This document shows positions 43,936 through 52,370 of a DNA stretch of 52,370 nt, one piece after another (positions within the stretch are counted from its first letter, which is position 1; each line of letters begins with the position of its first letter). A program made the translations under genes and the position numbers. Source of the DNA: Chitinophagales bacterium (GTDB lineage Bacteria > Bacteroidota > Bacteroidia > Chitinophagales > Saprospiraceae); assembly GCA_026928325.1 (NCBI GenBank), contig JAIXKS010000007.1, forward strand, positions 160,631 through 213,000, given 5' to 3'. Below the pieces are notes generated by a model. That model searched no databases and was not told the origin of the DNA. It was given only the letters and a program-made list of their open reading frames with translations.

Positions 43936-44094
43936 GTGCTCCGTCTATAAAAAGACTTAAATCATAATGGAAGTTATTTTTTTAAAGATCAAGGCAAAAA
44001 ACGCAGGCATAGTGGTAACTATGACGCGTATTTTTAACGATGAGATTTGAAAAAAGAACGACATTTCATTAAGATTTTTTTGTTGATAGAGCAC
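43936..44094 (+). repeat. Foldback MITE-like element, copy 6 (complete)
   Basis: A 159-bp copy in direct orientation to copy 5, separated from it by a single A. Ends GTGCTCCGTC and GATAGAGCAC, followed by TA (44095-44096). The 455-bp gap between the DUF1573 and rdgB genes is filled largely by copies 5 and 6. Confidence 0.86.
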
Positions 44095-44157
44095 TAAGCT
44101 CAATAGACAACATTTCAGAATTGTCCCTTCTTGCATATTGGTACGCTATAAATATCC

Positions 44158-44733
44158 TTATTTAGAAAGATATTTTAAGAGTTCGGCTACTGCTCTAGCA
44201 CGGTGGCTGATTTGGTTTTTTATGGTATCACTCAGCGCTGCAAAAGTTTTATCATAACCATCCGGAATAAATACAGGATCATAACCAAAACCTTCCTTTC
44301 CCGATCGTTGCTCAGCAATGTGACCACGAACTATACCTTCAAAATAAAGCGGGTGTTGACCGTCGTAATAGCAAATCACTGTTCTAAACTGTGCGCTTCT
44401 ATCAGATGCATCCTGCAAGGCTCGCAATAACTTTTCCATATTATCGCTTGGACTTTTTTGATCACCCGCGTATCTGGCCGTATGCACACCTGGTGCACCT
44501 GCTAACACTGTTACTTCGAGGCCTGTATCCTCTGACAAGGCCGTCAATCCTGTTTTATTAAATAGGTACTTTGCTTTAATCAAGGCATTTTCTTCGAGCG
44601 TCTCACCATCTTCCGGGATTTCTTCAAATATACCAACATCATGTAAACCTTGAATCTCATAGAGGGCTAAAATACTTCTTAACTCTTTTAGTTTATGGTC
44701 ATTGGCAGTGGCGAAAACTAAGGGTTTTTTCAT
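44158..44733 (-). CDS. rdgB: XTP/dITP pyrophosphatase RdgB (HAM1 family)
   Basis: Hydrolyses non-canonical purine nucleotides (XTP, dITP) to keep them out of nucleic acids. From ATG 44733 it is 191 residues, beginning MKKPLVFATANDHKLKEL as the family requires; the longer frame to 44772 is rejected. GETLEENALIKA, SEDTGLEV, GAPGVHTARYAG and GFGYDPVFIP are diagnostic. It starts 2 bp after the stop of the 143-residue partner gene, so the two form an operon. Confidence 0.94.
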   Translation of the reverse strand: MKKPLVFATANDHKLKELRSILALYEIQGLHDVGIFEEIPEDGETLEENALIKAKYLFNKTGLTALSEDTGLEVTVLAGAPGVHTARYAGDQKSPSDNMEKLLRALQDASDRSAQFRTVICYYDGQHPLYFEGIVRGHIAEQRSGKEGFGYDPVFIPDGYDKTFAALSDTIKNQISHRARAVAELLKYLSK

Positions 44734-44735
44734 AT

Positions 44736-45167
44736 TTATTTTTTTAAAAACATATTTTGAAATAGCGTCCAAATGGCTTTCTTCTTATCAAGGCTCGCAT
44801 TTAATACTTGCAGGTTATCGGCACAAAGTAGTTGACCCTTTTCCATAAGCACCACATGGTATAACCTAGGGTTGATCTGAAAACCAATCATTGCAGGTGT
44901 GACACCAAACAAGATAAGATCGGACCACGAAGGGATGATGTGACTCAGAATTAAAGGATTTTCATTTTCCTGAATGACAATCAACACATCTTGTTGCATA
45001 TCGTATTGAATGGCTTTCATCATATTTGAAAGCAAATTAGCTGCCGATTCATCATACTGTTGGCGACTCACGACCATAACTAAGCCCTTCTTACCTTCAC
45101 CAACAATCGTGTAATCCTTTCCTAGTACGGCTTCCGGGATATTGAATATTTTGTCATTTAACGCCAT
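44736..45167 (-). CDS. Conserved unknown protein, possibly DNA polymerase III psi (HolD)-like
   Basis: A 143-residue soluble protein with no signal. I do not recognise a named family. The order of elements (a beta-rich LVMVVSRQQYDESAANLLSNM, a central VLIVIQENENPL, IPSWSDLILFGVTP, then a short strand LQVLNASLDKKKAIWTLFQNM) resembles, by eye, E. coli HolD, whose C-terminus reads as a loop then RAALWQQI. This would be an alpha/beta fold related to uracil-DNA glycosylases. It is translationally tied to rdgB. The psi suggestion is a hypothesis only. Confidence 0.4.
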   Translation of the reverse strand: MALNDKIFNIPEAVLGKDYTIVGEGKKGLVMVVSRQQYDESAANLLSNMMKAIQYDMQQDVLIVIQENENPLILSHIIPSWSDLILFGVTPAMIGFQINPRLYHVVLMEKGQLLCADNLQVLNASLDKKKAIWTLFQNMFLKK

Positions 45168-45466
45168 AATAATAAATTATTATTTTAAAATTTTCGCAAA
45201 ATAAAAATTATATTTTAAATTGATAAAATAAATTCAGTAAAATTAAAATTTTATAAAAAATTTACTTACTTTTGTTGGTGAAAATTGCAGGATTTGATAA
45301 TCAATTAATCTGCAACTAGCCGAAAATCAAAAGTAATCGATGCAAAGATGAATACGTTTGACACTAACATTTTCAATATAGGTCAAACGATTAATACAAT
45401 TTATACGCAAAATAGATTGCAATTGTTTTCAAAACAAACCAATTATTAACACAAAACCCATTCCTA
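45168..45466. other. Leader region upstream of ilvE
   Basis: 299 bp that carry the ilvE promoter candidate and a long leader of about 190 nt. A 33-codon ORF runs from ATG 45348 to TAA 45447-45449 (several Ile, Thr and Asn, two Leu). I see no clear terminator/antiterminator pair between it and ilvE, so attenuation is not supported. Confidence 0.35.
45267..45274 (+). promoter_or_regulatory. Putative -7 promoter element of ilvE
   Basis: TACTTTTG followed by TTGG, giving a long leader of about 190 nt before the ATG at 45467. No clear -33 TTG. Confidence 0.45.
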
Positions 45467-46537
45467 ATGAGTTACAAATTTAAAATTACTAAAATCAGTG
45501 AATCAGGAGTATCCAAGTTAGACTTTAACAATATTCCTTTTGGCAAAGTATTTACTGATCATATGTTTGTGGCTGACTATATAGACGGCCAATGGACTAA
45601 TTTTGAAATCAAGCCGATAGCACCGATTCCGACCCATCCGGGTAATATGGCATGGCATTATGGACAAGCGATATTTGAAGGGATGAAAGCTACGGTAGAT
45701 GCAGCAAGAAATCCATTGTTATTTAGACCAGAGATGCATGCGGTTCGATTTAATAAATCCGCTTCTCGAATGTCTATGCCTGAGATACCTAATGATTTGT
45801 TTGTTCAGGCTGTACACAATATCGTACATATGGAAAAAGATTGGATACCGGCACAAGCAGGTTCAGCCTTGTATATTCGCCCTTTCATGTACGCAACAGA
45901 CGAAACCATCGGAGTTAAAGCCTCTGAAACTTATAAATTTATTATTTTCACCATGCCGGTTGGTCCTTATTATACCAATCCGGTTAAATTATTGGCTCAA
46001 GACAAGTATGTGAGAGCCGTCATAGGTGGCGTAGGAGAAGCTAAAACTGCAGGCAATTATGCAGCATCACTCTTACCAGCCACAATGGCTAAAAAAGAAG
46101 GTTATGACCAAGTTATGTGGTTAGATGGTGTTCATAAAAAATATGTTCAAGAAATAGGTACGATGAACATCTTTTTTGTCATCAATGACGAAATTCTTAC
46201 ACCAAATCTTGATGGTGCTATCCTTGCCGGAATCACTAGAGATAGCATGATTCAATTATTTAAGTCAGAGGGCTTTAAGGTGACGGAACGACCTATCACC
46301 ATCGACGAACTCATCGAAGCCGGCAAAAATGGAAGCCTGACTGAAGCTTTTGGATCAGGAACGGCAGCAGTTATTGCTCCGGCATCACACATCAAACACA
46401 ACGATGAAGTCGTAGAGTTAGACATGAATAATCGCAAATACAGCAGTTGGGCATTTGATACCATCAATGGCTTGAAAAACAGAACAGTAGCAGACAAATT
46501 CAATTGGATTGTTCCTGCTGAACCTTACCAAGAATAG
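45467..46537 (+). CDS. ilvE: Branched-chain amino acid aminotransferase
   Basis: Transfers amino groups between glutamate and the keto acids of Leu, Ile and Val. The 356-residue class IV PLP enzyme is of the long (eukaryote-like) type: GMAWHYGQAIFEGMKA, RPEMHAVRFNKSASRM, the PLP lysine in GVGEAKTAGNYAASLL, and GTMNIFFVIND and GITRDSM further on. The ORF is followed by a strong terminator. It has a long leader and stands apart from other ilv genes. Confidence 0.95.
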   Translation: MSYKFKITKISESGVSKLDFNNIPFGKVFTDHMFVADYIDGQWTNFEIKPIAPIPTHPGNMAWHYGQAIFEGMKATVDAARNPLLFRPEMHAVRFNKSASRMSMPEIPNDLFVQAVHNIVHMEKDWIPAQAGSALYIRPFMYATDETIGVKASETYKFIIFTMPVGPYYTNPVKLLAQDKYVRAVIGGVGEAKTAGNYAASLLPATMAKKEGYDQVMWLDGVHKKYVQEIGTMNIFFVINDEILTPNLDGAILAGITRDSMIQLFKSEGFKVTERPITIDELIEAGKNGSLTEAFGSGTAAVIAPASHIKHNDEVVELDMNNRKYSSWAFDTINGLKNRTVADKFNWIVPAEPYQE

Positions 46538-46560
46538 TTTATACACATAGTAAAACAGAT

Positions 46561-46599
46561 AAAAAAAACCTCTGAGTTCAAAGAATTCAGAGGTTTTTT
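46561..46599 (+). terminator. Rho-independent terminator after ilvE
   Basis: An A run, then CCTCTGAGTTC (46568-46578) paired with GAATTCAGAGG (46582-46592) around a 3-nt loop with one G-T pair, then an 8-T run. Could also serve the convergent bacilliredoxin gene. Confidence 0.9.
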
Positions 46600-46624
46600 T
46601 TATGCTTAAAACCAAAGACGCCTA

Positions 46625-47038
46625 TTAACAAAACTTGTCAAAGGCAGCTACTAAATTACTAGCAATGGTTTGTGCGGAATTACCTTCGATATGTCTTCTT
46701 TCCAACATATGGACAAGATTTCCATCCTTAAACAAAGCAATACTTGGCGATGAAGGTGGATAAGGTAGTAAATACTCGCGTGCTCGGTCTGTAGCTTCCT
46801 TGTCCACACCGGCAAACACAGTAATCAATCTATCCGGTTTTTTCCCATTGGCTACAGCCAATTTTGCGCCCGGACGAGCATGAGCAGCAGCACAGCCACA
46901 AACTGAATTCACTACTAATAATACGGTTCCTTCCTTTTGCTCAAGAATCTCAGAGACTTCGTTGGCACTGGCCAAACCTTCAAATCCGAAATCAGTCAGA
47001 TCCTTAGCTAATGGAGTTGTAAATTCTACTGGATACAT
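46625..47038 (-). CDS. Bacilliredoxin (BrxA/BrxB, YphP/YqiW family)
   Basis: A 137-residue thioredoxin-like protein from ATG 47038 (the longer ORF to 47086 is rejected). VNSVCGCAAAHARPGAK contains the CGC motif that reverses bacillithiol-type mixed disulphides in Firmicutes; many Bacteroidota carry it as well. The YPYPPSSPSIALFKDG region holds the cis-Pro. It acts in the cytoplasm in thiol redox control. It is convergent with ilvE. Confidence 0.88.
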   Translation of the reverse strand: MYPVEFTTPLAKDLTDFGFEGLASANEVSEILEQKEGTVLLVVNSVCGCAAAHARPGAKLAVANGKKPDRLITVFAGVDKEATDRAREYLLPYPPSSPSIALFKDGNLVHMLERRHIEGNSAQTIASNLVAAFDKFC

Positions 47039-47118
47039 TTTATAATCAATCGTTTTAATTAATAAATAGGTTAAGATTTTCAACAATAGTATTTCAAAAA
47101 GGTTGACAAATGCCTTCG

Positions 47119-47126
47119 CAAATTTA
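47119..47126 (-). promoter_or_regulatory. Putative -7 element of the bacilliredoxin gene
   Basis: CAAATTTA on the plus strand, TAAATTTG on the minus strand, 80 bp before ATG 47038. No paired -33 TTG. Confidence 0.35.
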
Positions 47127-47161
47127 AGATCCAGATTTGTTTAGCACTGAATATCCCGAGC

Positions 47162-47965
47162 CTAAATATAGGCAGCCATCAACTGCTGCATACCCAAGGC
47201 ACTCAATCGCATTTTCTCCTCATGATCTGCCCCGTCACCGGCATAGATGATATTGCGGGAAGAATTGATCAACATTCCTATCTCGCCATTGCTTCCATTT
47301 TCCATGACTTCCTTCAGATCGCCACCTTGTGCGCCTACGCCAGGAATTAAAAAGAAATAATCTTCAGCCATTTTTCGAATATCCTTCAGTAAATCGGGAT
47401 GCGTCGCTCCTACTACAAACATGAGATTGTTTGGGTTGCCCCATTTTTGAACCGTTTTGATGACCCGCTCATATAACATCTCTCCAGAATCCAATCTAAG
47501 CTGTTGAAAATCATGACTTCCCACATTAGATGTAAGGCCGAGCACTATCACCCACTTATCATCAAATTCGAGAAAGGGTGCTACTGAATCTTCGCCCATA
47601 TAAGGTGCCACCGTTACTGCATCAAAATTCATTTGTTCGAAAAATGTCTTGGCATACATCTTTCCTGTATTTTGAATGTCACCTCGTTTGGCATCCGCTA
47701 TTTTAAAAATATTATCCGGGATATAGTCGATGGTTTTCTCTAAAGATTGCCAACCGGCAATACCCATAGACTCATAAAAGGCGATATTGGGCTTATAGGC
47801 CACACACAAATCCTTTGTCGTATCAATAACGGTCTTATTAAATTCGAAGATCGGATCCTGAGCTTGCGTGAATTGTGAGGGTATTTTCTGAATATCTGTG
47901 TCCAAGCCAACACATAAGCAGCTCTTTTTAGTGCGTATCTGGTTGTATAATTCTTGGCGATTCAT
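47162..47965 (-). CDS. pyrF: Orotidine 5'-phosphate decarboxylase
   Basis: Makes UMP in pyrimidine synthesis. The 267-residue protein is of the longer PyrF subfamily (type 2). CVGLDTD near the N-terminus, the catalytic KIADAKRGDIQNTG block, VTVAPYMGEDSV, VVGATHPDLL and PGVGAQGGDLKE are present. Its ATG overlaps by one base the stop codon of the NifU-like gene (TAATG), so the two are translationally coupled. Confidence 0.95.
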   Translation of the reverse strand: MNRQELYNQIRTKKSCLCVGLDTDIQKIPSQFTQAQDPIFEFNKTVIDTTKDLCVAYKPNIAFYESMGIAGWQSLEKTIDYIPDNIFKIADAKRGDIQNTGKMYAKTFFEQMNFDAVTVAPYMGEDSVAPFLEFDDKWVIVLGLTSNVGSHDFQQLRLDSGEMLYERVIKTVQKWGNPNNLMFVVGATHPDLLKDIRKMAEDYFFLIPGVGAQGGDLKEVMENGSNGEIGMLINSSRNIIYAGDGADHEEKMRLSALGMQQLMAAYI

Positions 47966-48228
47966 TATTTATAATACCCATTTACAGCCATGACTCCATT
48001 AATTTCCGGAAGTTTGTCTTTAATCGTTTGCTCAACACCGGCTCGCATGGTCATTGCAGACATAGAACAAAATTCACAATTTCCGATCCACTTTACCATG
48101 ACAATCATATCATCCGTTACATCGACCAATTCGATATCACCACCGTCGCCATTCAGATGCGGTCGAATCTCGTCCAATGCTCGATTAATCCGATCTAACA
48201 ACTCAAGTTTTTCATTTGATTCTATCAT
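47965..48228 (-). CDS. NifU-like C-terminal domain Fe-S scaffold/carrier
   Basis: An 87-residue stand-alone NifU C-terminal domain protein. ALDEIRPHLNGDGGDIELV and the CEFC motif (cluster-binding) are diagnostic, followed by MTMRAGVEQTIKDKLPE. It binds or delivers [4Fe-4S] clusters. Start at ATG 48228; the five extra residues of the longer frame (to 48243) encode YLCA from a promoter-like sequence. It precedes pyrF with a 1-base overlap and lies close to the Mrp gene. Confidence 0.9.
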   Translation of the reverse strand: MIESNEKLELLDRINRALDEIRPHLNGDGGDIELVDVTDDMIVMVKWIGNCEFCSMSAMTMRAGVEQTIKDKLPEINGVMAVNGYYK

Positions 48229-48232
48229 AGCA

Positions 48233-48240
48233 CAAAGATA
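48233..48240 (-). promoter_or_regulatory. Putative -7 element of the nifU-like-pyrF operon
   Basis: CAAAGATA on the plus strand, i.e. TATCTTTG on the minus strand, close to ATG 48228 (only about 4 bp), implying a very short or leaderless message. Confidence 0.45.
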
Positions 48241-48339
48241 CAATATTTTTACACAAATCTAATTTGAACTTGCGAAAAATCCATACAAGCCACAAAAGCC
48301 CCACCTGCATAAGTTCAAAATCATCACCATAACTGATGA

Positions 48340-49434
48340 CTATTTAACCTTGATTTCAACAATCTTTGTCGGTGCAAATTGGGCATTTCTACGATTGACG
48401 CTATGCACCGTATTTTGAGCCAAGGATTTAAACTCTTGAAATACCAAATGCTCCGAATTAGTAGCAACTGGTTTTCCATTATCTCCGGCCTCTCTGACAC
48501 TTTGGACAATAGGAATTTGGCCTAACAATTCTGTTTCTGCATAGGTTGCCAATTGCTTTCCTCCTCCACTCCCAAAAATATAATACTTATTATTTGGCAA
48601 TTCTTCGGGCGTAAACCAGCTCATATTTTCCACAACGCCCAAAATCGGCACATTGACATTCGGCAATAAGAACATGTTCATCGCCTTCACTGCGTCAATA
48701 ACCGCAACTTCTTGAGGTGTCGTCACCATAATCGCACCTGTAACCGGAACTGTCTGCACGAGCGTAAGCTGAATATCTCCTGTGCCGGGTGGCAAGTCAA
48801 TCACCAAAAAGTCTAAATCTGGCCACATACAATCTTGAATAAACTGTTTGATTAAACCCGCTAATCTTGGACCTCTCAGTACGACAGCCTGCTCGGGTTC
48901 TATGATAAAGCCTATAGACATCACTTCAACGCCATGTGCCTTGAGCGGAATCAATTTATGCTTACCATAAAGCAACTCAACCTTAGGACGTTGGCCAACC
49001 AAACCCATCATCGTAGGAATAGATGGCCCATACAAATCAGCATCGATCAAGCCCACTTTGTACCCTTCATTAGCTAGAGCAACAGCGAGATTCACCGAAA
49101 CGGTAGATTTTCCTACACCACCTTTACCAGATCCAACAGCGATTATATTTTTCACCTGTGGCAATTCTCCCGTATCTTCTGGATGGGTCGTGCTATTTAT
49201 TTTCAAATGGATATCCACTTGTGCCTCCGGATAAATAGCCGCAATTTGCTCCATACAAGCAAAGTTCAAAGAAGATTTTACATCTTGCTCATTTGTATTT
49301 AAGACGATAGAAAAAGAAATATCATTTCCATTGATTCTAAAATCTTCGACCATACGCGCCGTGATAATATCTCTACCCGTTTTGGGATCTTTTACATTTC
49401 GCAAGGCAGCGACAACCATATTATTATCAATCAT
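48340..49434 (-). CDS. Mrp/NBP35 family Fe-S cluster ATPase (ApbC)
   Basis: A 364-residue P-loop ATPase that carries Fe-S clusters to apo-proteins. The N-terminal DUF59/MIP18-like part (about 1-80) is followed by the deviant Walker A GSGKGGVGKSTVSVNLA, DADLYGPSIPTMMGL, VIDLPPGTGDIQL and VVENMSWF. Where many Mrp proteins have a CxxC pair after the ENMS(W/Y)F element, this one reads FTPEELPNNKYYIFGSGGG, with no cysteine. It lies next to the NifU-like gene, which fits a shared role. Confident family call. Confidence 0.93.
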   Translation of the reverse strand: MIDNNMVVAALRNVKDPKTGRDIITARMVEDFRINGNDISFSIVLNTNEQDVKSSLNFACMEQIAAIYPEAQVDIHLKINSTTHPEDTGELPQVKNIIAVGSGKGGVGKSTVSVNLAVALANEGYKVGLIDADLYGPSIPTMMGLVGQRPKVELLYGKHKLIPLKAHGVEVMSIGFIIEPEQAVVLRGPRLAGLIKQFIQDCMWPDLDFLVIDLPPGTGDIQLTLVQTVPVTGAIMVTTPQEVAVIDAVKAMNMFLLPNVNVPILGVVENMSWFTPEELPNNKYYIFGSGGGKQLATYAETELLGQIPIVQSVREAGDNGKPVATNSEHLVFQEFKSLAQNTVHSVNRRNAQFAPTKIVEIKVK

Positions 49435-49540
49435 TATTCAGGATTTTTTTATCTTAAATCAATTTTATCTAACAATACCATTATAAAGTTTAAAAACTTG
49501 TTAATTGTTCACAATAAAATATAATTTTAATAATTTAATT

Positions 49541-49548
49541 TAATTTTG
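49541..49548 (+). promoter_or_regulatory. Putative -7 promoter element of the ribF fusion gene
   Basis: TAATTTTG followed by TGC, 33 bp before the ATG at 49582. Confidence 0.45.
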
Positions 49549-49581
49549 TGCTCAAGTGACTGATAGAGGCGATTACAACCC

Positions 49582-51570
49582 ATGAATATATATAATGATA
49601 TCCAGCAGCTACCCCCTTTTGATAAAGCTGTTATAACAATAGGTTCTTTTGATGGTATCCATAGTGGACACCGAAAAATACTGCATAGAGTCAGAGAATT
49701 AGCCAACGAAATTAATGGCGAAAGTGTAGTGATTACGTTCGATCCGCATCCCAGAAGTGTATTAGATCCTTCATCCAATGCATTGAGCGTATTGACCACT
49801 TTGAACGAAAAATTGGATCTTCTAAAAAAGGTCGGCATCCAAAATGTTGTCGTCGTTCCTTTTACATTTGAGTTTTCTCAACAAGCGCCTAGAGAATATA
49901 TAGAAAAATTCATTATCGGAAATTTCAATCCTGCCTATATCGTCATTGGCTATGACCATAGGTTCGGTTTAAATCGAAATGGAGACATCACACTTTTAAG
50001 AGAGTACGAAAAGCAGTCGAATTTTCAGATTGTAGAAATTCTCCGTCAAGATATCGAGGATATAGCTATCAGCAGTACACGTATCCGTAAGGCCGTATTT
50101 GCCGGCGAAATGGAGGAAGCCGCAGCATATCTGGGTTATCCTTATCTCCTGACTGGAAGAGTAGTCCATGGGGATCAATTAGGTTCGAAAATCGGCTATC
50201 CGACTGCCAATCTTCAAATAGATAGCAAAGATAAGTTGATACCTAAAGAAGGTATTTATGCTGTCGAAATCGACATTGATGACATGATATTTGGAGGCAT
50301 GATGTATATCGGTAAGCGGCCTACAGTGTCCGACCAAGTCATAGAAAACATTGAGATCAATGTTTTTGATTTTGATCAAAATATCTATGATCGAAACATC
50401 CAAGTGAGTGTCATTCACTATTTGAGAGGAGACCATAAATTTCCTTCCGTAGAAAGTATGGTTCGCCAAATTCAACAAGATGAAAAAGATGCTAGATCTT
50501 TTTTATCGACCTACAAACAAAAATTGCCAGAACCGATTGACGTCACGATAGCCATATTGAATTACAACGGTGTCGAACTTTTGGAGTCGTATCTTCCGAT
50601 GATGGGCTATAGCTCTTCTAAGTATAATGTCGATATTGTCGTCATTGACAACCATTCGGAGGATTTGTCCATTGATTTTGTCAGGGAATGGTACCCTGAA
50701 ATCAAAACGGTAGAACTATCCAAAAACTATGGTTTTGCCGAAGGATACAACAAAGGCCTTAAAGATATCGATTCCGAATATATCGTCATTATCAATTCTG
50801 ATGTTCAAGTCACAGAAAATTGGCTAGATTCCATCATCGACGCCATGAATGCCGATAAAACCATTGGTGCCATACAGCCAGGTATCAAATCCATGGAAGA
50901 TAAATCGCGTTTTGAATATGCCGGTGCAGCAGGTGGATTTATGGATGCCTTAGGTTATCCTTTTTGTCGTGGACGAATATTTGATACCATAGAAAAAGAC
51001 GAAGGCCAATACAAAGACGCACTAGAGGTATTTTGGGCTAGTGGTGCTGCTATGGTCGTTCGCAATAAGTTGTTCAAAGAAATAGGCGGATTTGATGGTG
51101 CTTTCTTTGCACATCAAGAAGAGATCGACCTTTGTTGGAAAATCAAAATGGCCGGATATAGCATACTTTGTATGCCACAAAGCACGGTCTATCATGAAGG
51201 AGGCAGTACTTTAGAATATAACAATCCAAGAAAAGACTTTCTTAATTTTAGAAACAACCTTTACTTGCTGACAAAAAACATGCAACTAACGTCTTTACTT
51301 TGGCTGATTCCGATTCGATTAGTTTTGGATGGAATCGCAGGTATTAAATTTTTAGTAGAAGGCAAACCCAAATCGACGCTAGCGATTATACGAGCACACA
51401 TGTCGTTTTATGTGCATCTTCCACTCGTTTTAGAACGTAGAAATAAAGAATACCAATGGATCAAGCATGTAAAAATTGACAAGCCCAACTTTAATGGAAA
51501 GTACTACGGCTCGATCGTTTATAAGTACTTTGTCGAGGGAAAAAAGAAATTCAGTCAGCTAAAATTCTAA
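49582..51570 (+). CDS. ribF: Riboflavin kinase/FAD synthetase fused in frame to a family 2 glycosyltransferase
   Basis: A 662-residue ORF with two unrelated enzymes. Residues 1-185 are the FAD synthetase (GSFDGIHSGHRKIL at 21-34, FDPHPRSV, GYDHRFG, SSTRIRKA at 164-171). Residues 186-307 are the riboflavin kinase (GYPTANL at 205-211, GIYAVEI, IEINVFDFDQNIYD). This is complete RibF, usually about 310 residues. After a 12-residue linker a GT2 domain begins at about 320 (VTIAILNYNG, DIVVIDNHSEDLS, IIINSD near 403-406, WASGAAMVVRNK, GGFDGAFFAHQEEIDLCW) and runs to the end. There is no stop between them and no ATG at the junction; only a TTG (L315) could start a separate GT2. RibF makes FMN and FAD; the sugar acceptor is unknown. 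The next gene starts three bases after the stop, in the same frame. Confidence 0.9.
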   Translation: MNIYNDIQQLPPFDKAVITIGSFDGIHSGHRKILHRVRELANEINGESVVITFDPHPRSVLDPSSNALSVLTTLNEKLDLLKKVGIQNVVVVPFTFEFSQQAPREYIEKFIIGNFNPAYIVIGYDHRFGLNRNGDITLLREYEKQSNFQIVEILRQDIEDIAISSTRIRKAVFAGEMEEAAAYLGYPYLLTGRVVHGDQLGSKIGYPTANLQIDSKDKLIPKEGIYAVEIDIDDMIFGGMMYIGKRPTVSDQVIENIEINVFDFDQNIYDRNIQVSVIHYLRGDHKFPSVESMVRQIQQDEKDARSFLSTYKQKLPEPIDVTIAILNYNGVELLESYLPMMGYSSSKYNVDIVVIDNHSEDLSIDFVREWYPEIKTVELSKNYGFAEGYNKGLKDIDSEYIVIINSDVQVTENWLDSIIDAMNADKTIGAIQPGIKSMEDKSRFEYAGAAGGFMDALGYPFCRGRIFDTIEKDEGQYKDALEVFWASGAAMVVRNKLFKEIGGFDGAFFAHQEEIDLCWKIKMAGYSILCMPQSTVYHEGGSTLEYNNPRKDFLNFRNNLYLLTKNMQLTSLLWLIPIRLVLDGIAGIKFLVEGKPKSTLAIIRAHMSFYVHLPLVLERRNKEYQWIKHVKIDKPNFNGKYYGSIVYKYFVEGKKKFSQLKF

Positions 51571-51573
51571 CCA

Positions 51574-52302
51574 TTGAAGTACTTTAAACCCGAAATAATA
51601 TTTGAAGATGAGGATTTGGTGGCCGTAAATAAGCCTGCCGGTGTACTCACGATTCAAGACCGATTTAATGCTGCTATTCCCAATCTGATAACCATCTTAA
51701 AGGCATCTTATCCCGAGATAATCCCGGTGCATAGAATCGACAAGTTTACAAGTGGCATTAATCTATTTGCAAAAAATGCAACTAGCCACAAATGGATGTC
51801 CGCTATCTTTGAATCCCGAGAAATTGAAAAGTATTATACGGCAATTGTGGACGGAACACCCTACCCTGAATCCGGTAGAATAGATATTCCCATAGCTGAA
51901 TCGACAGTCACACGGGGAAAAATGTTGGTTCATAAACGCGGAAAACCCTCTATTACGGATTATAAAATCATCAAATCTTACGGGCGATATTCTTTGCTTC
52001 ATGTTCGGATATTGACTGGTCGGATGCATCAAGTGCGCGTTCACCTACAATATTTAGGGCATCCTTTGATCGTTGACGCAATGTATGGCAATAGATCGGC
52101 TTTTTACCTTTCCGAATTAAAACAAAAGAAATACAATCTTACAAAATACGAGGAAGAACAACCTTTGCTAGGCAGACAGCCGTTACACGCACATAAACTT
52201 CTATTCACGCATCCTATTACAGAGCAACCTATAGAGATAACTTGCCCTTTACCCAAAGCCATGTCGGCCATCCTCAATCAGATGGACAAGTGGTTGAAAT
52301 AA
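51574..52302 (+). CDS. RluA-type RNA pseudouridine synthase
   Basis: A 242-residue pseudouridine synthase of the RluA superfamily, probably acting on rRNA or tRNA. VAVNKPAGVLT, the catalytic aspartate in HRIDKFTSG, TDYKIIKSYGRYSLLHVRILTGRMHQVRVHLQYLGHPLIVD are diagnostic. No ATG is available at the N-terminus: the upstream stop of the ribF fusion is in the same frame at 51568-51570, so TTG 51574 is the only reasonable start. It lacks the N-terminal S4 domain. Exact target is unknown. Confidence 0.9.
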   Translation: MKYFKPEIIFEDEDLVAVNKPAGVLTIQDRFNAAIPNLITILKASYPEIIPVHRIDKFTSGINLFAKNATSHKWMSAIFESREIEKYYTAIVDGTPYPESGRIDIPIAESTVTRGKMLVHKRGKPSITDYKIIKSYGRYSLLHVRILTGRMHQVRVHLQYLGHPLIVDAMYGNRSAFYLSELKQKKYNLTKYEEEQPLLGRQPLHAHKLLFTHPITEQPIEITCPLPKAMSAILNQMDKWLK

Positions 52303-52370
52303 TTTCAAGTATTTTAATCCTAAAATCGACCTTGGTGAGACGTCATAATGTCTCGTTTACTAAAAAAATT

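Follow-up and report, generated by a model that had tools for sequence, protein, structure and literature searches.

A lineage-specific fusion of the sole RibF with a GT2 glycosyltransferase in Saprospiraceae, with a labile junction

Why a bifunctional RibF and a GT2 glycosyltransferase should be encoded by one gene is the question raised by the window, the 52,370-nucleotide stretch of a Saprospiraceae genome analysed here. The initial annotation had described an intact RibF in frame with an intact GT2, with neither a stop nor an ATG at the junction, and had called the architecture unfamiliar. Its coordinates and frame are exact, Pfam and NCBIfam models cover both halves, and reading of the frame bears out the absence of both codons; our literature search likewise found no description of a RibF-GT2 architecture. 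The fusion is genuine and lineage-specific, occurs family-wide and has a labile junction. We use 'Saprospiraceae' in a wide sense; Neolewinella and Portibacter are placed by NCBI in Lewinellaceae and Haliscomenobacteraceae, order Saprospirales.

Architecture of the ribF-GT2 gene

The gene is a single open frame of 662 codons, from the ATG at 49582 to the TAA at 51568-51570. The features of the locus are as follows.

48340..49434, minus strand: presumably an Mrp/ApbC-like ATPase gene, as we name it from its sequence; divergent upstream neighbour
49582..51570, plus strand: ribF-GT2 fusion gene, 662 aa, from profile matches and full-length homologues
49624..50082, plus strand: FAD synthetase (adenylyltransferase) domain, residues 15-167 (Pfam PF06574 FAD_syn, 6e-47)
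50131..50505, plus strand: riboflavin kinase domain, residues 184-308 (Pfam PF01687 Flavokinase, 5e-40)
50506..50538, plus strand: variable linker, residues 309-319; in relatives, the site of the switch between fused and split genes and of the A-runs
50524..50526, plus strand: TTG, the sole ATG/GTG/TTG codon within the linker of the window gene
50539..51561, plus strand: GT2 glycosyltransferase, residues 320-660 (Pfam PF00535 Glycos_transf_2 at 346-501, 2e-16)
51286..51471, plus strand: C-terminal helices, residues 569-630, with a hydrophobic stretch (helices from the structure model, hydrophobicity from the sequence)
51574..52302, plus strand: RluA-type pseudouridine synthase, a separate gene with a TTG start, from profile matches; a common downstream neighbour

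The two halves correspond to proteins that are known separately. Both domains of the bifunctional RibF of Corynebacterium ammoniagenes (2x0k) and Thermotoga maritima (1mrz) match residues 12-310 in sequence and fold; those proteins, of about 300-340 aa, end where the linker begins, and the NCBIfam RibF models reach residue 314. Stand-alone GT2 orthologues are common in Bacteroidota (Flavobacterium, Pedobacter and Parabacteroides among the best 80 matches), where they have their own start codon, align at residues ~320-660 and are 44-51% identical. Among the 63 named loci in these best 80 matches, ribF lies in the flanks of only one and in opposite orientation (L104, a named Bacteroidia MAG in which GT2 and ribF are convergent, ~0.6 kb apart).

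Across 20 aligned fused homologues, F23, D24, G25, H27, H30, S164, S165 and R169 are invariant in the FAD synthetase half, as are G205, P207, T208, A209, N210 and E258 in the riboflavin kinase half; we take these to be the catalytic motifs of RibF. In the GT2 half, N405 and D407 of NSD (405-407) and E513, E514 and D516 of EEID (513-516) are invariant, which we assume to be the acidic metal/nucleotide-sugar motif and the catalytic acid, respectively. As in a bifunctional RibF, both domains and conserved catalytic motifs are present in one protein, and as in GT2 enzymes, a GT-A type fold and a profile match accompany the acidic motif and catalytic acid residues. The structure model contains two well-formed domains (pLDDT 86.6, pTM 0.57), and the confident domains together with the low pTM fit two bodies on a flexible joint, a compatibility rather than a proof. 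In Foldseek, the GT2 half resembles the GT-A enzymes GalNAc-T2 and GlfT2 with moderate TM-scores. From the model and the hydrophobicity, the helices at residues 569-630 could serve for membrane attachment. No FMN riboswitch or other Rfam RNA was detected at gathering threshold in 44000-52370.

Searching of the assembly yields only one RibF match in the window genome, and every one of the 30 fused genomes checked has its single FAD_syn match at the fused ORF; hence the flavin supply of the cell seems to rest on the ribF-GT2 protein. Five genomes that are 90-98% complete (G022, G083, G192, G246 and G275) have no FAD_syn match, probably because of assembly gaps at the locus. One genome (G263; 87% complete, 4% contamination) carries two different ribF-GT2 genes, on C202 and C56, and is possibly a mixed bin.

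The stand-alone orthologues also give a hint of the function of the GT2 half. Of 74 stand-alone GT2 loci, 15, a minority, are preceded by a lipid A acyltransferase homologue in the same orientation; other frequent neighbours in these 74 loci are an OmpA-family gene (17), an HSDR_N-like gene (19), holA (19) and a GWxTD gene (19). From neighbours such as the acyltransferase homologue, the GT2 half may perhaps transfer sugar in the synthesis of an envelope glycolipid (LPS or lipid).

Distribution and switching of the fusion

A search for the two-domain architecture, which the initial annotation had proposed, returned full-length homologues from the same genus and many other genera. Among 60 relatives searched, most of the family has full-length matches, including 8 of the 9 further members of the genus; the remaining one is 65% complete. 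One full-length match at E<=1e-150 was found in 289 of 398 family genomes, a recurrence beyond chance; the figure slightly overstates fusion because a few such genomes, at least two of them (G031 and G221) among these, have a stop at the junction. There were no full-length matches outside the family: samples of the order (18/149), class (5/395) and phylum (5/395) gave family members only, at thresholds that would miss fusions whose linker is long or whose similarity is low. Among the best 80 matches, 12 of the 17 named full-length loci are 'Saprospiraceae bacterium' MAGs, and Neolewinella persica and Portibacter marinus are also represented; one of the 17 (L101) is split, and an Mrp/ApbC-like ATPase homologue is present at 11 of the 17.

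MAGs make up most of these sequences, which might be taken to favour an assembly or sequencing artefact, and a sequencing error hiding a stop codon near the junction had been named as a possible refutation. The same single ORF occurs, however, in independent genomes, including those of the cultured N. persica and P. marinus. Since full-length matches are found in the same genus and in many other genera, we regard such an error as excluded, and the chance that the fusion is an artefact as negligible.

We read 156 family genomes at base level, a set that is not random, comprising nearly all two-match genomes and only part of the fused ones. The genes are fused in 113 (the gene end is seen in 112 and one runs off its contig), two neighbouring genes in 41 and apart in 2, so that 113 of 154 neighbouring cases are fused. 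One further locus (L207) has no RibF and lies at a contig end, and two genomes with short RibF pieces were omitted from the tree. The commonest spacing of the split genes is a 4-nt overlap, found in 11 of the 37 split pairs in which GT2 has a start codon; one report ties such overlaps to translational coupling and to subunits of complexes (PMC10666635). In the other four split cases (G013, G253, G094 and G154) GT2 has no start codon, and these may be errors. In one split genome (G130, L196), 1.36 kb separates ribF and GT2, and the only two family genomes with the genes apart (G107 and G087, L203-L206) cluster with split ones in each tree. Outside the family, none of the 10 order relatives read has the two genes side by side; in one they are ~10 kb apart.

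Parsing of these states on trees reveals frequent exchange. There are 13 state changes on one tree (11 without four doubtful genomes) and 12 on a second, including switches inside genera, e.g. G137/G216 and G248 against G094/G186. One tree also contains two long-lived clades, of 44 and 27 genomes, in which every member is fused. A fused root gave the better fit (lnL -45.7 vs -49.6), whereas a fit with a flat prior gave the opposite reading, and such tests of a single origin followed by losses rest on a poorly resolved deep tree, the second tree mixing the family with outgroups. Judging from these ~11-13 changes, covalent joining is dispensable over evolution. The linker of the fused genes is 14-30 residues long and freely variable in sequence.

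The downstream gene provides a comparison. RluA lies directly downstream in 100 of the 147 family loci with room for it, and GT2-RluA shares the favoured 4-nt overlap with ribF-GT2; nevertheless, not one of the 104 cases in which GT2 and RluA are neighbours is a fusion. The initial annotation had correctly placed RluA in the frame of the fusion after one TAA and had taken this as a sign of a history of in-frame joining. That interpretation does not stand: the shared frame of the GT2 stop and the RluA TTG (51568-51574) is ordinary, since 19 of 104 relatives share it, and RluA as a third member of a serial joining is ruled out by the absence of any fused case. Because the equally tight GT2-RluA pair is never fused, tight packing alone does not explain the ribF-GT2 fusion; either this join is favoured or joining of RluA to GT2 is harmful, and a specific benefit of the ribF-GT2 fusion is possible.

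A separate GT2 product might also arise by initiation inside the gene, for instance at the TTG at 50524. Such a codon exists in the window gene, at least one ATG/GTG/TTG is present in 65 of 112 fused linkers, and in 7 of 37 split GT2 genes the start codon nearest the stop is TTG. Between the last conserved RibF residue and the GT2 motif, however, 47 of the 112 fused genes have none of the three codons, so that GT2 lacks an ordinary start of its own in them, and ATG is lacking from 93 of the 112 while present in 27 of 37 split GT2 genes. In a second set of 43 genomes, read over a slightly different stretch, 37 lack ATG and 18 lack all three. We consider a separate GT2 product improbable, although in the window gene the TTG might serve as such a start.

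Adenine runs at the junction

The linker of some relatives contains long runs of A. In 149 genomes, five of the 154 being omitted for the length of their junction, there are 24 runs of at least nine A in 13,260 nt of junction as against 2 in the remaining 281,567 nt of these genes, and no T, C or G run of at least nine in the junctions. The runs occur in 23 of these 149 relatives, and A9-A11 in 11 of 43 further fused genomes, which were selected by full-length match from listed coordinates before their junctions were read and overlap the first set in genera. A run of at least eight A is present in 31 of the 149 (23 of 113 fused and 8 of 36 split). The first-set loci with A9-A11 are L003, L015-L017, L019, L022, L025, L047, L060, L062, L174, L175, L177, L178, L212, L214, L229, L230, L237, L240, L248, L265 and L266, and the junction of L060 (G080) has two such runs. 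The longest run in the window junction is A5.

The excess is above coding, intergenic and codon-resampling expectation. The window and 20 stretches of these genomes hold, in 377,676 nt of other coding sequence, 2 runs of at least nine A; 32,381 nt of intergenic DNA contain 8 such runs of A or T, i.e. 0.12 per kb per strand vs 1.8 in the junction. Runs of at least nine A are found at 23 of 154 ribF-GT2 junctions vs 3 of 104 GT2-RluA start regions (Fisher p 0.0013, with kinship ignored). When codons were resampled with the protein kept and each gene's own usage, 18 of 112 junctions were seen with a run vs 7.1 expected (0 of 400 draws), and in the second set 11 of 43 vs 4.8 (0 of 1000 draws), kinship again being ignored. 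In the junctions, 11 of 12 Lys-Lys-Lys triplets begin with AAAAAAAA; elsewhere in the genes 1 of 26 does so and in other coding sequences 4 of 30, a striking avoidance of these codons outside the junctions. The runs are also present in GC-rich genes (GC 0.5-0.59). That they are relics of a stand-alone GT2 leader is unsupported, because none of 74 stand-alone GT2 genes has at least nine A upstream.

A possible function of the runs is slippage. In a survey by Baranov et al. (PMC1088944), nine is given as the run length from which selection against A or T repeats becomes apparent in numerous bacterial genomes, and the nine-A run in dnaX of Thermus thermophilus as yielding about half short product; in that survey, IS elements form the largest group of slippage cases, with one non-mobile candidate. 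By analogy, slippage of RNA polymerase or the ribosome on A9-A11 may allow one gene to yield both RibF alone and RibF-GT2, a reading that we regard as tentative. The likeness is confined to relatives of the window gene, which itself has no run of nine or more A in its coding region, and for dnaX slippage and both products were measured according to the same source, whereas for ribF-GT2 the parallel is one of sequence.

The enrichment of the runs over every background above, the GT2-RluA junctions and the resampled codons of both sets included, their absence upstream of stand-alone GT2 genes and the concentration of AAAAAAAA in the junctions would all be consistent with slippage, as would the finding that a one-base shift in the 23 fused genes with at least eight A runs into a stop at a median distance of 2 codons in the nearer frame vs 4.5 in the 90 others. 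Against it, most junctions, including that of the window, have no such run; the runs are gained and lost often, with 24 changes for 32 tips, so the site is not conserved; Lys-rich linkers account for part of the excess (7.1 of 18); most of the genomes are draft MAGs; and no marked stem-loop follows the run (mean -12.0 vs -10.7 kcal/mol, at higher GC), which leaves a ribosomal frameshift aided by such a structure without a marked signal. Relative to the RibF frame the runs end in each of the three phases, which would suit transcriptional slippage better than a fixed ribosomal heptamer.

Insertion of one A would open the frame into GT2 in 6 of the 8 split genes with at least eight A. We discarded this direction of shift as support, because 26 of 41 split genes are in the -1 frame and the same direction is usual in those without runs. 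In three of the split genomes without any GT2 start codon (G253, G094 and G154), which have A10-A11, slippage would be the sole ordinary route to GT2, unless these are assembly errors.

Origin and meaning of the fusion

The fusion is a genuine, lineage-specific joining of the sole RibF to a conserved Bacteroidota GT2, and we consider it probable that it is made as one chain whose halves work independently. The RibF half is predicted to produce FMN and FAD, and the GT2 half would transfer sugar in envelope synthesis, probably of LPS or lipid, independently of it. The genes have come to lie side by side within the family, fused or tightly packed; joining would fix their co-expression at a one-to-one ratio, and small indels in the unconstrained linker would create or remove the fusion. 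In a subset of species, the window gene not among them, A9-A11 at the join may also yield RibF alone.

The initial annotation had offered flavin-linked sugar transfer and a by-product of co-regulation as explanations. The latter fits better; for the former we found no evidence: inside the family the two genes have changed ~11-13 times between the joined and the split state, and outside it they do not adjoin in the genomes sampled. A biochemical purpose of the covalent link, such as flavin-dependent glycosylation or use of the GT2 half as a membrane tether for RibF, would account for the fusion of 113 of 154 neighbouring pairs while GT2-RluA is never fused, for the all-fused clades of 44 and 27 genomes and for the hydrophobic C-terminal helices; the repeated split states in which both genes are intact and the lack of adjacency in the 10 order relatives speak against it, and we think it rather unlikely. 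Riboflavin kinase is fused to another enzyme in plants as well, in FMN hydrolase/riboflavin kinase, where the partner acts on flavins, in contrast to the glycosyltransferase here.

Somewhat less doubtful, and still unlikely in our judgement, is that overlapping neighbours fuse and separate through chance indels without consequence. The 11-13 switches and the freely variable linker of 14-30 residues are what such drift would produce. It leaves aside that GT2-RluA is fused in 0 of 104 cases under like spacing, that large clades remain fused and that the A-runs exceed the intergenic background.

Of the leads, the possibly slippery linker of some family members is the most interesting and goes beyond the initial annotation, the window gene being excluded from it. 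It is conceivable, though we would not put it higher, that the A9-A11 run determines how much free RibF is made relative to RibF-GT2 in part of Saprospiraceae and that a change in run length flips the gene between fused and split; if so, slippage would give a chromosomal enzyme gene two products by this route. For annotation, the locus is a warning that a GT2 and an essential flavin enzyme can stand under one gene name. Within a single family this gene pair occurs fused, overlapping or separate, which makes it a natural series on why genes fuse, for which the like-packed GT2-RluA pair serves as an internal control.
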